Shown here one piece after another: positions 20,383-25,912 of a DNA stretch of 31,698 nucleotides. Numbering within the stretch: position 1 is the first letter of the stretch; each line of letters starts with the position of its first letter. The position numbers and the translations under genes are program-made. Source of the DNA: a virus; IMG/VR virus record IMGVR_UViG_3300009085_000067, positions 1 through 31,698 of that record. One strand, 5' to 3'. The notes beneath the pieces were generated by a model that had not been told where the DNA came from, did not search any database, and saw only the letters and a list, made by a program, of their open reading frames with translations.

Positions 20383-20401
20383 GGTCGATCTCCTTCGTCG
20401 T

Positions 20402-20423
20402 CGAGTTGAGGCAGTTGTTAGAT
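20402..20423 (-). repeat. Truncated attC site (left half only)
   Basis: On the minus strand the site reads ATCTAAC then AACTGCCTCAACTCG, equal to the R'' and L'' part of the complete attC sites downstream of the other cassettes. The second half (L', R') is missing; the sequence changes at once to a ribosome binding site and the small peptide. Its R'' box is complementary to GTTAGAT, the opening box of its own cassette. The array end has therefore been eroded or fused to phage sequence. Confidence 0.75.
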
Positions 20424-20627
20424 GTGCTTAAACCCTACTTGTGTTTTTACCGTATCTGCGCCAACTAAAAACTCATAATCACAGAACCAAGTCTCTTTAT
20501 ACGAACCGATTTCATAGTACGAAATACCGTATGTAATTCTATTATCTCTGATAGTAATACCGGTTATAACCCCAGAATATTCTGATCTTTTTAGAATAAC
20601 TTCTGTTCCGCAAGGTATTAATTCCAA
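20418..20627 (-). CDS. Cassette D: small SH3-like beta-barrel-type protein
   Basis: The 69-residue protein starts at TTG 20627, seven bases after AGGAG. Its stop lies in the R'' box of the truncated attC, so the gene fills its cassette. The sequence GTEVILKRSEYSGVITGITI followed by ISYYEIGSYKETWFCDYEFLV is beta-rich and reads like a small SH3 or KOW-type barrel. Integron cassettes often carry such short orphan proteins. No function can be assigned. Confidence 0.7.
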   Translation of the reverse strand: MELIPCGTEVILKRSEYSGVITGITIRDNRITYGISYYEIGSYKETWFCDYEFLVGADTVKTQVGFKHI

Positions 20628-20647
20628 CTATTTCTCCTGTTCGCAGT

Positions 20648-20671
20648 CCGTGTTTTGTATTCTAAACACGG
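20648..20671 (-). other. Leader hairpin of cassette D
   Basis: An 8-bp perfect stem (CCGTGTTT with AAACACGG) and 8-base loop lie between the recombination site and the ribosome binding site. It matches in position, but not in sequence, the hairpins of the other three cassettes. Confidence 0.7.
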
Positions 20672-20680
20672 CAAGAATCC

Positions 20681-20738
20681 ATCTAACATTTGCTTAACCT
20701 GCATCCGTTAGGATGTCAGGTTGAAGCAGTTGTTAGAA
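20681..20738 (-). repeat. attC site of the rtcB cassette (58 bp)
   Basis: Minus strand: R'' TTCTAAC and R' GTTAGAT (a full match to GTTRRRY). The plus-strand hairpin pairs TCTAACA/TGTTAGA (20682-20688, 20731-20737), TGCTT/AAGCA (20691-20695, 20724-20728), AACCTG/CAGGTT (20696-20701, 20717-20722) and CATCC/GGATG (20702-20706, 20711-20715). G20723 and T20716 are left unpaired, as extrahelical bases are in attC sites. Length equals the classic 59-base element. Confidence 0.88.
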
Positions 20739-20742
20739 ACTC

Positions 20743-21852
20743 TTATTCCCCTCCGGACTTGAAGTTATAAACAGGCTTCACCATTTCGATTACGTCAACA
20801 GTTTCCTTGATATTTTCAAGGATTATTGCCATATCCTTGTATGCGTCTGGCGATTCGTCGAGCGTCCCGGCATTCGCGGTAGTCGTATAAACTCCCGCTT
20901 GTTTCATGTCTTCCTGAAAGTATTCAACGTCGAGAACCGCCTTTGCTTTTGACCGCGAGAGAATACGCCCAGCCCCATGAGGTGCGGAATAGTTACACTT
21001 CTTGTTTCCTTTCCCGGTGCAGATTGCCAAACCGTCGCGCATATTGAACGGGATAATTACGCGCTGGCCTTCATGCGCGGGGGTAGCGCCTTTGCGAATC
21101 ATGCCGGATTCATCGATGAAGTTGTGAACGGATTCTATTTCGTCAACTGGTTCCTTGCCGAAAAATCCAGTCAATCGGCGCATCATCTCGAAACGGTTTT
21201 CGCTTGCATAACGCGCACCAATAAGCTGATCGTGTATATAATTTTGTCCTTCCGGTGAATCGACAACAAGAAACGGAATACCCTGTGTATCAGCGCCCCA
21301 TTTCGTGCAAAGCTCCTTTGCTACGATTCCGTGATATTTTGCGACCTGCAAGCCGAAATTGCGCGAACCGGAATGAATCGTTACCCACAATTTACCGTCG
21401 TTTCCATAACCGGCTTCGATGAAGTGATTCCCGCCGCCGAGCGAACCGATAGAGCGAATGGCACGTGCTTCGTCCATTCCGATCTTTTTTACCGTTTCAG
21501 TGAAGAAGTCTTCACCGCGATACGGCTTGTCATTGACGGAAAAACCGGACGGGATATGCTCTTTTATAAACGCATCGAAAGCAGGAATGTTTAAACTTTC
21601 AGCATCGAACTTTGCAGAAAGCATGCCGCAACCGATATCAACGCCGACAACATCGGGAATAATCCGATCATTCATCTGCATGGTAAAGCCAATGCACGAA
21701 CCAGCTCCCGCATGACAGTCCGGCATAATTGCTATATACGATCCGTGAAAAGACGGATTATTTACGAACCCCTGAATCTGCCCGCGCGTGGTTTCGTCAA
21801 TATCGTCGATCATGACGTTCGCCGAATTGTACTTACCTTTGACTATCTGCAT
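20743..21852 (-). CDS. rtcB: RtcB-type RNA ligase (cassette C cargo)
   Basis: The 369-residue protein joins RNA 2',3'-cyclic phosphate or 3'-phosphate ends to 5'-OH ends using GTP and Mn. Visible motifs: MPDCHAGAG (residues 43-51), GVDIGCG with metal ligands D72 and C75, GSLGGGNHFIE (H143), THSGSR-like IHSGSRNFG (H160), SVHN (H243) and PHGAGR with H292, the guanylylated His. It is shorter than E. coli RtcB (408) but keeps every catalytic residue. GGAG precedes ATG 21852. It lies alone in a cassette between two attC sites, five bases from the downstream site. In a phage it may repair tRNA or rRNA cut by host defence nucleases (inference). Confidence 0.93.
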   Translation of the reverse strand: MQIVKGKYNSANVMIDDIDETTRGQIQGFVNNPSFHGSYIAIMPDCHAGAGSCIGFTMQMNDRIIPDVVGVDIGCGMLSAKFDAESLNIPAFDAFIKEHIPSGFSVNDKPYRGEDFFTETVKKIGMDEARAIRSIGSLGGGNHFIEAGYGNDGKLWVTIHSGSRNFGLQVAKYHGIVAKELCTKWGADTQGIPFLVVDSPEGQNYIHDQLIGARYASENRFEMMRRLTGFFGKEPVDEIESVHNFIDESGMIRKGATPAHEGQRVIIPFNMRDGLAICTGKGNKKCNYSAPHGAGRILSRSKAKAVLDVEYFQEDMKQAGVYTTTANAGTLDESPDAYKDMAIILENIKETVDVIEMVKPVYNFKSGGE

Positions 21853-21881
21853 CTTATTCTCCTTTTCTTCCCGCGAAGCGT

Positions 21882-21902
21882 CCGCGTATGTCTAATACGC
21901 GG
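21882..21902 (-). other. Leader hairpin of the rtcB cassette
   Basis: A 7-bp perfect stem (CCGCGTA with TACGCGG) and 7-base loop precede the ribosome binding site, ten bases after the R' box. It is equivalent to the hairpins in cassettes A, B and D. Confidence 0.7.
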
Positions 21903-21912
21903 CGCAGAGTCG

Positions 21913-21973
21913 TTCTAACATTTGCTTAACTCGCAAGGCTATTCGCCGAGTCGAGTTGAAGCAGTTGTTAGGT
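21913..21973 (-). repeat. attC site of cassette B (61 bp)
   Basis: Minus strand: R'' ACCTAAC, R' GTTAGAA (one mismatch at the last base of GTTRRRY). The arms share TAACATTTGCTTAA and TTGAAGCAGTTGTTA with the other sites. Pairs include TGCTT/AAGCA (21923-21927, 21959-21963) and AACTCG/CGAGTT (21928-21933, 21952-21957), with G21958 unpaired at the same place as in the other attC sites. The stop of the upstream cassette gene (21968-21970) lies inside the R'' box. Confidence 0.85.
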
Positions 21974-22165
21974 ACTCTTAATCTCAAGCTCGTCTTCAAA
22001 AAACATTATTCCGCCATTCTTTTTGTCCATGTCTATAAATTGAGCGGGAACAGAATCGAGATGTACTCGATATCGTTTTATCCTTAAACTTATTATCTCT
22101 GGTGGAACGCTGGTGACAACACCTTCCCCGTGAATCGTATTAACTCTATTTCCTTGTTTTAGCAT
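21968..22165 (-). CDS. Cassette B, second gene: small SH3-like protein
   Basis: The 65-residue protein starts at ATG 22165, overlapping the stop of the first gene by one base (TAATG), with GGGGAGG just upstream. The sequence MLKQGNRVNTIHGEGVVTSV and the end FFEDELEIKST suggest a small beta-barrel; the V-x-T-x-x-G-E-G turn recalls SH3-type folds. Its stop reaches into the attC. Function unknown; with its partner it may form a two-gene unit. Confidence 0.65.
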   Translation of the reverse strand: MLKQGNRVNTIHGEGVVTSVPPEIISLRIKRYRVHLDSVPAQFIDMDKKNGGIMFFEDELEIKST

Positions 22166-22383
22166 TATGCCTCCCCAGCAGGTTTGTTTATTTCGCGATA
22201 TTTGCCATAATGCAAACAATTTGCGGTAATCTCTTCGTTAAATTGAAAATCCCTAAACTTTGAAAGTGTGTTTCCAGGAGCCTCGATGGAACAAACAAGG
22301 TTGTGGCCGTCACCCGTACTTCTAAGAATTGTTGCGTTGTACCTTTTTAACAGCTTTTCTAGCTCATTAAAAAACTGTTTCAT
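22165..22383 (-). CDS. Cassette B, first gene: small hypothetical protein
   Basis: The 72-residue protein begins MKQFFNELEKLLKRYNATI, a helix followed by a mixed alpha/beta region. ATG 22383 follows GGGAGG with about six bases between. Its stop overlaps the start of the second gene, so the two form one translational unit in a single cassette, an arrangement seen in integrons for toxin-antitoxin pairs. I see no toxin or antitoxin motif, so this is only a possibility. Confidence 0.65.
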   Translation of the reverse strand: MKQFFNELEKLLKRYNATILRSTGDGHNLVCSIEAPGNTLSKFRDFQFNEEITANCLHYGKYREINKPAGEA

Positions 22384-22403
22384 TTTTTCCTCCCGTTCGA
22401 TGT

Positions 22404-22430
22404 CGGTCTAGTCGCAAAGCGGGTAGACCG
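22404..22430 (-). other. Leader hairpin of cassette B
   Basis: A 7-bp perfect stem (CGGTCTA with TAGACCG) encloses a further CGC/GCG pairing around AAA. It lies between the R' box and the ribosome binding site, as in the other cassettes. Confidence 0.65.
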
Positions 22431-22439
22431 CGAGAATCG

Positions 22440-22492
22440 ACCTAACATTTGCTTAACCTGCACGAAGTGTCAGGTTGAAGCAGTTGTTAGCT
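22440..22492 (-). repeat. attC site of cassette A (53 bp)
   Basis: Minus strand: R'' AGCTAAC, R' GTTAGGT (a full match to GTTRRRY). Pairs include TGCTT/AAGCA (22450-22454, 22478-22482), AACCTG/CAGGTT (22455-22460, 22471-22476) and CAC/GTG around GAA, with G22477 and T22470 unpaired. The stop codon of the lipoprotein gene overlaps the R'' box. Confidence 0.85.
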
Positions 22493-22856
22493 ACTCTTTA
22501 TCTTTCTGCCTTATTCGTGGCTGTTCGTCTAAATCATTTTCAGTCCGTTCGTACCAACCGCCAATCTGCGCGAGATCGTAAGTATCGTGTGTAACCCATA
22601 CGGTAGCGGAATCCCATTTGTGACTTTTTTCGTTAAAAGCGCGATAGCTTATGTGCCACGAGTCAGGATAGAAAAAGCACATTGGAAAGAGTGTTGTATA
22701 TGTAGTTTTGCCAGCTGAGTGAACAATTGGCATTAAAATTACTGTCGTATGTGCCGGGTTGTAATCCTTTGAATATACTTCGCCTTCTTTTATTTTCGGT
22801 GTGCAAGAGGTAAGCAGAATGGTAAAAACCGCAACAATAAAAACCGCTTTCTTCAT
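22491..22856 (-). CDS. Cassette A: small lipoprotein
   Basis: The 121-residue protein begins with a short basic n-region (MKK), a hydrophobic core and lipobox LLTSC (residues about 14-18), so Cys18 would be lipidated. The mature part has many aromatics (FFYPDSWHISYRAF, WDSATVWVTHDTYD) and a charged tail. GGAG lies upstream of ATG 22856. A lipoprotein exposed at the surface or in the periplasm could change phage adsorption, for example in superinfection exclusion, but no sequence feature shows this. I do not recognise the family. Confidence 0.75.
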   Translation of the reverse strand: MKKAVFIVAVFTILLTSCTPKIKEGEVYSKDYNPAHTTVILMPIVHSAGKTTYTTLFPMCFFYPDSWHISYRAFNEKSHKWDSATVWVTHDTYDLAQIGGWYERTENDLDEQPRIRQKDKE

Positions 22857-22884
22857 GATCTCTCCTTTTCTTCCCGCAACTTGT

Positions 22885-22908
22885 CCGCCTTCGATTTATT
22901 GAAGGCGG
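22885..22908 (-). other. Leader hairpin of cassette A
   Basis: An 8-bp perfect stem (CCGCCTTC with GAAGGCGG) and 8-base loop lie ten bases after the opening box and before the ribosome binding site, as in the other cassettes. Confidence 0.7.
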
Positions 22909-22918
22909 CTGGTTGTCG

Positions 22919-22949
22919 AGCTAACATATATTAGACTGAACAGCCTAAC
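22919..22949 (-). other. Array head: attI-like or residual attC boundary
   Basis: On the minus strand GTTAGGC (22949-22943) is followed by GTCTAAT and then GTTAGCT (22925-22919), the box that opens cassette A. An inverted box four bases before a GTTRRRY-like box resembles the simple L/R core of an attI site. The site lacks the long arms of the other attC sites. It may be an attI, a secondary insertion site in the phage, or a deleted attC; I cannot decide. Confidence 0.35.
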
Positions 22950-22964
22950 TTCCCGGAACACTGC

Positions 22965-23141
22965 CTATCTCCCGCCGTCAATCTTCTGCCGTTTCGCACG
23001 GCCAACTCTTGCCTCGCGCCTTTTCAGCCATTCCTCGAAAGCTTTACGAGCCATTATCCCGATTTCCTTCTCGTGTTCACCGAGTGAAACGAATCGTGAA
23101 ACCTGTTCGTCTGTCGCGTCAAAAACCACCCTTCTAGCCAT
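22965..23141 (-). CDS. Small RHH-like DNA-binding protein
   Basis: The 58-residue basic protein starts at ATG 23141 eight bases after a perfect AAGGAGG. MARRVVFDATDEQVSRFVSL followed by the helix IMARKAFEEWLKRREARV has the strand-helix-helix layout of Arc/MetJ-type ribbon-helix-helix repressors. A promoter (23172-23200) lies just upstream. It is the first gene upstream of the cassette array and could regulate the early transcript. The fold is inferred by eye. Confidence 0.6.
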   Translation of the reverse strand: MARRVVFDATDEQVSRFVSLGEHEKEIGIMARKAFEEWLKRREARVGRAKRQKIDGGR

Positions 23142-23242: not shown

Positions 23243-23896
23243 CTATTTGTTTGCTTTTTTCATATGTGCGTGAAAATCGTCAATAATCGCCTTGACGAAG
23301 CCGTCATTCCATCGGTTCCGGCCCATATCTTCCAGCTCGTCAATCTTCGCTTTTATCAGGTCAGAAAAGCGAACGGTGTCCCAGAAACTGGAAGTCTCCT
23401 GGAATACGAGGTGATACGTACCGTCGCCGTTGTCGATCTTCTTGACCAGGTGCCCGCGGATTTTGTCCTCTCCCATCTCCGCGACGAGAATGAAAGCTGA
23501 AACGAGGTTGTCCGGTACGTCGATTTCATGTATCGGCGCGTAGTCCTCCATGTCTTTGTCGTAAAGCTGTTGGACGGTAACTCGTGCGCGGGGATCTTCA
23601 TGGTTCAGTATCTCAGCGATATTGGAATAGATTTTCCAAAGTAAGGCATTTTCAAGCACCGTCCGATCATCGTAGCGCGCCTTGATTGTGATTTCTAGCT
23701 CTACCGGCTCCTTTCCTTTCGCTATCCGCTTGTCATTTACATCAAACGTATTCTTGATCCAGTCACGGAATATCTGCTTATATCCCAGATCGTAGCGCGC
23801 AATAAATACGTTTTCAGCAAGCCCACGCGAATTGGTAGAAACGAAACGTCGGTAATCGTCGAGAGATAAGGTTCCACGAAAGAAAAGTTTTTTCAC
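23243..23896 (-). CDS. Unknown early phage protein
   Basis: A 217-residue protein begun at GTG 23896, six bases after AAGGAG; the frame is open further upstream but without a better site. It opens KKLFFRGTLSLDDYRRFVS, and has a middle helical region and a C-terminal charged helix (IIDDFHAHMKKANK). It lies after ssb in the leftward early operon, so a role in replication or recombination is possible. No family recognised. Confidence 0.75.
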   Translation of the reverse strand: MKKLFFRGTLSLDDYRRFVSTNSRGLAENVFIARYDLGYKQIFRDWIKNTFDVNDKRIAKGKEPVELEITIKARYDDRTVLENALLWKIYSNIAEILNHEDPRARVTVQQLYDKDMEDYAPIHEIDVPDNLVSAFILVAEMGEDKIRGHLVKKIDNGDGTYHLVFQETSSFWDTVRFSDLIKAKIDELEDMGRNRWNDGFVKAIIDDFHAHMKKANK

Positions 23897-23946
23897 CGAT
23901 TTCTCCTTGAATGCTCCCGCCCGGTATTGAGCGGGAGCGGTGTGCA

Positions 23947-24387
23947 TCAGTACAGAATGTCATCCGGGAAATCGGAGGGAACTGAGTCATCAGGCGGAGC
24001 GTCGTTCTTTGTTTCGTTTGCCAGAGAACGCTCCTGCTGTGCAGAATTACCCTTAGCTTTATCTAAACCACCGAGAAGCTGGATGTTGTTCGCGTTGACT
24101 TCGATCTTTGATCGAGCCTGCCCATCCTGCTCCCATCGGTTCTGATGAAGCTCTCCTTCGACGGCGACCTGCTTTCCTTTCACCAGATACTGGTTAAGAG
24201 CCTCGCCGGTTTTCCCCCAGCACACGATGTCAAAAAAACTTGTTTCTTCAACCCACTGCTCTCCCTGCTTTTTGCGCTTGCAGACTGCGATAGCGAACTT
24301 GCACACTGCCATACCGCCGCTAGTGTATTTAAGCACCGCGTCTCGCGTAAGCCTGCCGATTAAAAGAACGTGATTTACGTCTGCCAT
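23947..24387 (-). CDS. ssb: Single-stranded DNA-binding protein
   Basis: The 146-residue protein has the OB-fold SSB pattern: NHVLLIGRLTRDAVLKYT (residues 5-22), FAIAVCKRKK, FFDIVCWGKTGEALNQYLVKG and VEGELHQNRWEQDG. A disordered acidic tail ends PSDFPDDILY, an acidic tip comparable to the DDDIPF partner-binding tip of bacterial SSB. It protects ssDNA in phage replication and recombination, and lies beside a Rad52-like annealing gene, as usual. GGAG precedes ATG 24387. Confidence 0.93.
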   Translation of the reverse strand: MADVNHVLLIGRLTRDAVLKYTSGGMAVCKFAIAVCKRKKQGEQWVEETSFFDIVCWGKTGEALNQYLVKGKQVAVEGELHQNRWEQDGQARSKIEVNANNIQLLGGLDKAKGNSAQQERSLANETKNDAPPDDSVPSDFPDDILY

Positions 24388-24389
24388 AT

Positions 24390-25280
24390 TTACTCCTCTA
24401 CCTTTTCGTAGGTAATTCCGTTGTCAATCATGTACTGCCGCAAGGCGAACAGCACTGATTTCTTTCCCTTGAAGCGCATTGTGTAAGTCATTACCGGGTC
24501 AAGGTCTGCCGTGTCTCCATTCGCCTGCGCGGACAATGTTGCAATAGGCTCGTTTTCCTGCGCCTTGACCTCCTCGCGGCCGAGTTCTTCTTGAGCTTCG
24601 CGCCTTGACTTTGCTTCCTCGCGCTCTTTTCGTTCTGTCTCCTCGCGGGCAAGACGTTCGCGGTTTTCCTTGATTCGGTTCCACTTTTCGGAGGCCTTGC
24701 TGATGTCGAGCGTGTCAAGGAAAAAGGGTTTGAGAATTGCGAGTGCCTCTGTGTCGATTCCGAGCGTTTCGAGCGTCTTGATCCCGGCATAAATGTCGGA
24801 AATCTTCTTTTCGATCTCGGCATACACGTCTTTGTTTTTCGCTGTTTTATTCAACCAGCGGTCATCGAAAATCTTTTCGAGTGATACGAGATCGAAGTTT
24901 TGACACTCCCAAAACTGCTTTATCTGCGCACGCTTGACGGCCTTTTCTCCCTCTTCCCTTGTCTTGACGATTGCGTCAAGCTCAAGAGCGGCGGCATCGA
25001 TGTCTTTTTCGACCTTCTTGCACCGCGTCTCGAAAGAGTCGATCTTAAATCGCGCCATTGCATTTTTTATGATCTCGATCCGCTTCATCGAAACGGTATT
25101 CTTTGAAGTGTTCAATGTAGCGCGGTCTTTTTTTGCCGCGTCTGCATCGCCCTTGTAGTTTTCCGGAGCATACGCTACCAGTTTCTCGGCAACGAACCTT
25201 TCAAGATCGTCGATGTTTGTTACCAGCACGCCTTCATTTGATTCGATCTCGATAAGCGCAATTTCTTTTGACTCGCTCAT
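24390..25280 (-). CDS. DUF1351-family protein (recombination cluster)
   Basis: The 296-residue protein is mostly helical and charged: KKDRATLNTSKNTVSMKRIEI (residues about 50-70 in part), KDIDAAALELDAIVKTREEGEKAVKRAQIKQFW, and a long Glu/Arg coiled coil (about 205-245). The last 50 residues form a small alpha/beta part. This is the DUF1351 pattern; such genes accompany phage annealing proteins, and the protein probably helps recombination. Start overlaps the previous stop by four bases. Confidence 0.8.
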   Translation of the reverse strand: MSESKEIALIEIESNEGVLVTNIDDLERFVAEKLVAYAPENYKGDADAAKKDRATLNTSKNTVSMKRIEIIKNAMARFKIDSFETRCKKVEKDIDAAALELDAIVKTREEGEKAVKRAQIKQFWECQNFDLVSLEKIFDDRWLNKTAKNKDVYAEIEKKISDIYAGIKTLETLGIDTEALAILKPFFLDTLDISKASEKWNRIKENRERLAREETERKEREEAKSRREAQEELGREEVKAQENEPIATLSAQANGDTADLDPVMTYTMRFKGKKSVLFALRQYMIDNGITYEKVEE

Positions 25281-25912
25281 TTACATGTCTCCTGTTTTTT
25301 CGCCCAGTCAATCCACTGGATTATCTTCTCAATGTTTCCATTCTTTACCGCGTTACCGGCACGAATGGCATTTTCTGAATCAAACTTCCCTCCCGCAATT
25401 AGGGCCTCAAGTTCAACGGTGCGCTTTTCAAGCTCGACGTTTTTCTGATTCGGCTCTACATCGTCGGCGTATTTAGCGCCATCCCAGCGTCCGGAATAGA
25501 TGTCAGCCGCAACTCCGAGCATCTTGAGTGCGGTTCCGAGCGCGTCGGTGATAGCCATTTTGTACCCTTCATCGTTTGGCTTTGCGCGCTTTGGGCCGTT
25601 CTGCTCGTATCCCTTGACCATATCGACAAGTGTGTTGCCACCTGCCGCCGGTATCGGGTCGCTCCATTTGTCACCATCCTTGACGAATACGTTTACCTGC
25701 GCGAATGCAAGTACCGTTCCGTCGGAGGTAGGATAGTCCCATAGCTTGACTACTTCATACTTCCACGCAGTTCCGCATGGGCCGAAAACCTTGTCCATTA
25801 TCTCATACCGCCATTGAGGATTGATGTCGGTCTTGCCCTTGAGGTCGCCTGCCTGAATCTGGCGCAACGCGGATACCGGCGGGCGGCGCAACTTGTCGTA
25901 GTTCTCGCTCAT
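25277..25912 (-). CDS. Rad52-superfamily-like ssDNA annealing protein
   Basis: The 211-residue protein has INPQWRYEIMDKVFGPCGTAWKYEV (residues about 30-54 in part), PIPAAGGNTLVDM and NDEGYKMAITDALGTALKMLGVAADIYSG. This set of motifs is typical of phage Rad52/22-like annealing proteins, where the TDAxxxALKxLG helix is the strongest mark. Such proteins anneal single strands in phage recombination together with SSB. The next two genes (DUF1351, ssb) complete the module. Confidence 0.75.
   Translation of the reverse strand: MSENYDKLRRPPVSALRQIQAGDLKGKTDINPQWRYEIMDKVFGPCGTAWKYEVVKLWDYPTSDGTVLAFAQVNVFVKDGDKWSDPIPAAGGNTLVDMVKGYEQNGPKRAKPNDEGYKMAITDALGTALKMLGVAADIYSGRWDGAKYADDVEPNQKNVELEKRTVELEALIAGGKFDSENAIRAGNAVKNGNIEKIIQWIDWAKKQETCK

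Follow-up and report, generated by a model that had tools for sequence, protein, structure and literature searches.

A tailed phage with an integron-type cassette array, an attI-like site and cassette leaders, probably served by an integron integrase in trans

Integron cassette arrays have been found in several phage genomes. The closest described system is the cluster of attC sites lacking integron integrases (CALIN) of Tetrasphaera phage TJE1 (NC_019930); in E. coli, IntI1 recombined two of its attC sites, attC1 and attC2, with attI1 (Qi et al. 2023, PMC9892861). The CALINs and integrons of Vibrio, P1 and Shewanella phages treated in the available part of that paper are likewise attC arrays inside phage genomes, but they are chromosomal fragments, class 1 integrons on P1 or complete integrons, and no conserved attI-like site or leader is described for them there. 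Sedentary chromosomal integrons of the Treponema type (PMC3607928; arrays L091-L096 and L106) have the attC consensus TTCAACCTGAC...GCAGGTTAAGC and cassette starts made of a box and a hairpin. Both traits recur at the locus described here, a four-cassette array in viral record IMGVR_UViG_3300009085_000067. The window is this whole viral record (31,698 bases), which contains terminase, portal, head, tape-measure and replication genes and is a tailed phage. Phage cassette arrays of the family shared by TJE1 and this record, together with the function of their attC sites, are already known from the 2023 publication (PMC9892861, in its available part). A conserved attI-like site, a covarying leader at the cassette starts and the decoupling of leaders from open reading frames (ORFs) were not found described in the open-access literature and are reported here as new.

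The array is like that of TJE1 in its attC family, leader hairpins, type of dyad before the first cassette, lack of an integrase and adjacent SSB gene. TJE1 has its own backbone and cassettes (a methyltransferase and unknown genes). The Treponema-type integrons differ in encoding IntI, in their long arrays, in their attI (GGAAGGGTCGAAGGAAT before GTT) and in having only short, simple leader hairpins. A CALIN has at least two attC sites and no integrase, and the array falls within this definition, although its attI-like site exceeds what a CALIN usually has; as no intI was found in the record, it does not count as a complete integron. A first-pass annotation, made from the letters alone, had reported three full attC sites (53, 61 and 58 bp) and a half site on the minus strand, with an unpaired G at the same place in each full site. 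All of these are present.

22440-22492, minus strand: attC site 1, 53 bp (model R3 E-value: 3.2e-15; DNA fold z: -4.1)
21913-21973, minus strand: attC site 2, 61 bp (R3 E-value: 4.3e-13; DNA fold z: -4.4)
20681-20738, minus strand: attC site 3, 58 bp (R3 E-value: 1.7e-16; DNA fold z: -9.0)
20400-20423, minus strand: left-half attC site (R'' and L'' only) at the array end

R3 is an attC covariance model built from spirochaete array sites that lie beside integron integrases only, which avoids circularity. Its matches in the record are exactly the three full sites and the opposite strands of the same (E-values of 1.7e-16 to 4.3e-13). A check of the kind that the annotation had proposed, with an attC covariance model, comes out in favour of attC. 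On the recombining strand, all three sites are predicted to fold into a hairpin as expected of attC, each with a single bulged G at an equal position. By R3 scores and folds, the R'', L'', L' and R' boxes and the extrahelical base typical of attC are all in place.

Left-half attC sites (R''-L''-CTGAC), terminal or internal, also occur in relatives (G001:10733, G004:20325, G005:11018, G010:16504 and 17670, L066:6700 and L127:10364). Several run straight into a ribosome-binding site and start codon. Such half sites look like cassette fusions or locked array ends.

The attC sites delimit four cassettes.

22447-22925, minus strand: cassette 1, a leader and a 121-aa putative lipoprotein (ORF 22491-22856; weak lipobox match, E-value: 0.4); boxes GTTAGCT/AGCTAAC
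21920-22446, minus strand: cassette 2, a leader and two overlapping ORFs of 72 aa (22165-22383) and about 65 aa (21968-22165); boxes GTTAGGT/ACCTAAC
20688-21919, minus strand: cassette 3, a leader and a 369-aa RtcB RNA ligase (20743-21852; PF01139, E-value: 7e-63); boxes GTTAGAA/TTCTAAC
20418-20687, minus strand: cassette 4, a leader and a 69-aa ORF with a TTG start (20418-20627); boxes GTTAGAT/ATCTAAC

Family searches gave no confident protein family for the cassette 2 ORFs and no family for the 69-aa ORF of cassette 4. In all four cassettes the opening box is exactly complementary to the closing box of the same cassette and not to that of its neighbour, just as the annotation had claimed. 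Within the record alone this is a 1 in 24 result by permutation. Across the record and its relatives, exact matching is found in 31 of 39 phage cassettes (shuffled mean 3.8; maximum 13 in 20,000), and missed intermediate sites account for some of the eight that do not match. Such exact matching within a cassette is the mark left by circularisation at G|TT.

Sites of the same attC family were found in 13 stretches of 12 viral contigs and, with later finds, in at least 17 viral records besides this one. One of them, G009, is phage TJE1 itself (a comparison of 4,500 bases showed no difference). Cassette 3 recurs in viral record G412 (87% amino acid identity); its box is unchanged there and its attC nearly so, whereas the cassettes on both sides are others. 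The idea that phage RtcB homologues are cassettes in general was rejected, as neither an attC nor a leader lies close to the viral homologues other than that of G412 (two of these are cut off close to where their records start). Viral record L127 has in common with the record an operon of exonuclease, DUF1351, NinB and small-ORF genes. In the record, these genes lie in the following stretches.

23243-25912, minus strand: recombination module (NinB-like, SSB, DUF1351 and exonuclease/Rad52-like genes), upstream of the array
22965-23141, minus strand: 58-aa ORF, by eye a possible ribbon-helix-helix DNA-binding protein, directly upstream of the attI-like site

The counterpart of the 58-aa ORF at the equal position in L127 is 43% identical. 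At the locus where the record has its array, L127 carries three different cassettes, including one for a Dam-like methyltransferase (by eye), and the locus is thus a cassette hotspot in related phages. The independent attC scores, the box matching over 39 cassettes, the RtcB cassette of G412 and the turnover in L127 together uphold the view that this is a true cassette array shaped by recombination at G|TT. The RtcB, DNA methyltransferase and Dam-like cargo suggests, but does not prove, counter-defence functions.

L127 also has a 213-aa GIY-YIG endonuclease-like ORF (L127:8050-8691; by eye), an insertion that separates its small DNA-binding-like ORF from the array.

Every cassette opens with a two-helix leader that ends immediately before the ribosome-binding site. 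The order of its parts is box, NGAY, outer stem, inner hairpin, A-C/T, outer 3' strand, ribosome-binding site and start codon. The four leaders below were all training sequences of the leader model, R1, and their E-values are to be read accordingly.

22868-22925, minus strand: leader of cassette 1 (R1 E-value: 3.6e-10, in training set)
22387-22446, minus strand: leader of cassette 2 (R1 E-value: 5.9e-14, in training set)
21865-21919, minus strand: leader of cassette 3 (R1 E-value: 5.6e-11, in training set)
20631-20687, minus strand: leader of cassette 4 (R1 E-value: 7.6e-10, in training set)

Covariation was measured on a sequence-only alignment of 34 leaders. The inner stem has double changes in all eight of its pairs, 93.8% of cells pair, and its covariation is 0.595, compared with 0.153 +/- 0.021 when shuffled and at most 0.134 when slid. 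The outer stem scores 10.06, compared with 8.16 +/- 0.41 with swapped partners, a value unmatched in 2000 shuffles. The case for the leader rests on this covariation because single-sequence RNA fold z-scores are unremarkable for three of the four leaders of the record. Over 466 kb of phage-related sequence the model matches at 65 places, all within arrays as far as inspected, and on Treponema arrays it has only weak matches; a comparison with Rfam gave no match at the gathering threshold in the record. With its covarying stems, the leader is apparently an RNA element that has not been described before. As a best guess, this RNA would insulate the ribosome-binding site from the attC or attI hairpin upstream.

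Spirochaete chromosomal cassettes (L091-L096 and L106) open with a box, NGAY and a short, simple hairpin, and several share a longer 5' region. This short hairpin may be related to the phage leader, as a simpler form.

A rather unlikely alternative is that the leader hairpin acts as DNA, as an accessory site for the integrase, and not as RNA. Its constant place after the recombination box is compatible with such a role, as are the simpler hairpins at the equal position in the chromosomal Treponema cassettes. An RNA is nonetheless preferred, given that the hairpin precedes many ORFs and stops directly at the ribosome-binding site.

The first cassette is preceded by a dyad that is a candidate attI.

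22919-22948, minus strand: attI-like site, made up of the dyad TTAGGCTGTTCAGTCTAA (22948-22931), a 5-nt spacer (TATAT) and the core box GTTAGCT (22925-22919)

The core box doubles as the opening box of cassette 1. The consensus of such sites is TTAGGCTGwwCAGTCTAA-N5-GTTRRRY, abutting the first cassette, and the geometry TTA-N12-TAA-N5-GTT heads 15 of 18 phage arrays; the arms vary but are largely symmetric throughout. The exact pattern occurs in only five stretches of the viral collection, in each of them directly in front of cassettes of the same family. L127 has a second, broken copy of the record-type site just before the one in use. A related motif, GAACAGTCTAA-N5-GTTAG, lies beside the intI remnant of a decayed integron in a spirochaete metagenome-assembled genome (MAG).

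The dyad could instead be an operator or a terminator, which is unlikely. It is palindromic, a putative DNA-binding ORF adjoins it in the record, and the TJE1 version is called a predicted terminator in the available part of Qi et al. 2023 (PMC9892861), where no leader is described. However, in 15 of 18 arrays the dyad keeps a constant distance of 5 nt from the GTT cut point, and there is no T-run after it. Promoter-like sequence (by eye) lies just upstream in G005, as expected of a cassette promoter. These points favour the candidate attI.

The integron integrase family (TIGR02249) has no match in this record, as the annotation had stated, or in 12 other viral records. The annotation had also proposed a search of genomes for the attC family together with an integrase. 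A strict attC pattern had no match there, and a looser pattern picked out six contigs, one of them from a Spirochaetales MAG that has an intact IntI (420 bits) and a prophage whose array matches viral record G004. Hints of spirochaete hosts come from the similarity of the attC sites and from the SZUA-475 prophage; TJE1, for its part, infects an actinobacterium.

The spirochaete-type decayed integron mentioned above (G015) comes from a 3.4-Mb MAG from a cave sample labelled Borreliella garinii, a label that looks wrong for this size and source. Its intI was set aside as a candidate for the acting enzyme, since it looks internally deleted (by eye). Arrays of the same attC family, with sites of about 110 bp, were also seen in L057 and L022, from a MAG labelled Acholeplasmatales Tener_01, of which the label or the binning may be wrong.

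Taken together, the record probably carries an integrase-less integron, consisting of an attI-like docking site and four genuine cassettes, that is served in trans by an integron integrase. Docking site and cassettes would sit at the end of a recombination-gene operon, and cassettes would be gained and exchanged at G|TT by an enzyme supplied by the integron of an infected host or by a co-resident element. By separating the ribosome-binding site from the attC or attI before it, the leader would let a cassette be translated in any position. The annotation had proposed that the cassettes were gained through an integron integrase, probably in a host that has an integron. The evidence supports the core of this, a true integron-type array shaped by recombination. 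As the phage has an attI-like site of its own, a host array is not a necessary source of its cassettes, and any integrase or host named for this phage is a candidate. Having a docking site but no integrase, such phages would hitchhike on the integrons of their hosts. They could move cassettes between bacteria that are only distantly related, the system being common to a spirochaete prophage and an actinobacterial phage.

Several results weigh against this reading. No integrase-attI pair is tied to the phage of the record. Apart from one chance-like match, the phage form of the attI-like site was not found in 393 Spirochaetota genomes, and the attI of oral-Treponema-type arrays looks different. 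The host of TJE1 is an actinobacterium, so a single type of host fails to explain the family. Relatives of the portal protein were not found in 387 Spirochaetota genomes, although this search had no positive control and is uninformative. Lastly, integrase action alone does not explain how leaders and ORFs are combined.

Among 56 pairs of phage cassettes with leaders at least 80% identical (many 95-100%), no relationship between the ORFs was detected in 55, a count limited by short ORFs and by a small, assembly-dependent sample. The leader of cassette 1, for example, recurs in another phage (98.5% identical) before a different ORF, and one pair of phage cassettes has both leader and attC end in common but different ORFs. 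Conversely, the RtcB cassettes of the record and G412 carry different leaders. In Treponema arrays, by contrast, most pairs with shared leaders also have related cassette bodies (127 of 161). As attC and leader are contiguous in an excised circle, a new ORF joined to this block would make a new cassette. It is conceivable, as a tentative extension, that a phage-adapted cassette lineage uses phage attI sites and borrowed integrases, with the box and leader RNA as a reusable head for new ORFs and phages as the sites where new cassettes are assembled. Near-identical heads before unrelated genes in different phages would in any case be natural intermediates for studying cassette assembly. To our knowledge, how integron cassettes are first assembled is an open question.

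The same decoupling fits an explanation in which cassettes change mainly through annealing recombination by the phage (Rad52/ERF-like, SSB and NinB proteins) on short homologies in attC and leader, instead of through an integron integrase. The recombination genes directly upstream of the array and the pair with a common leader and attC end agree with it, but the exact matching of own boxes (the mark of G|TT circularisation) and the maintenance of an attC hairpin with its extrahelical base make it improbable as the main route.

Less probable still is a relic, a piece of a host chromosomal array taken up by ordinary recombination in which nothing moves. The missing integrase, the truncated final attC, the G+C content (44% in the array and 50% in the remaining record) and the reports of chromosomal integron fragments in phages in the available part of PMC9892861 would suit such an origin. 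Yet most arrays are abutted by the attI-like site, which the searches of hosts did not turn up, strong scores of the two-helix leader model are confined to phage arrays, and L127 holds different cassettes at the equal locus. In addition, the limited sample of host arrays fetched yielded none of the phage cassette ORFs. That the attC sites are terminators or ordinary repeats, the latter being an outcome by which the annotation could have been refuted, is rejected on the box matching and the R3 matches. The 15-mer of the left attC arm occurs four times in the record (two mismatches or fewer), always within the array.

An integrase supplied in trans remains the preferred reading of the locus, and some features of the surrounding genome complete its description. 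A promoter scan across the array was at chance level, and a search with the tape-measure protein found no relatives of the phage. An SSB gene, as in the module upstream of the array, also adjoins the arrays of several other phages and of one spirochaete prophage. The phage encodes a tRNA-Ser (anticodon AGA) at 697-767.

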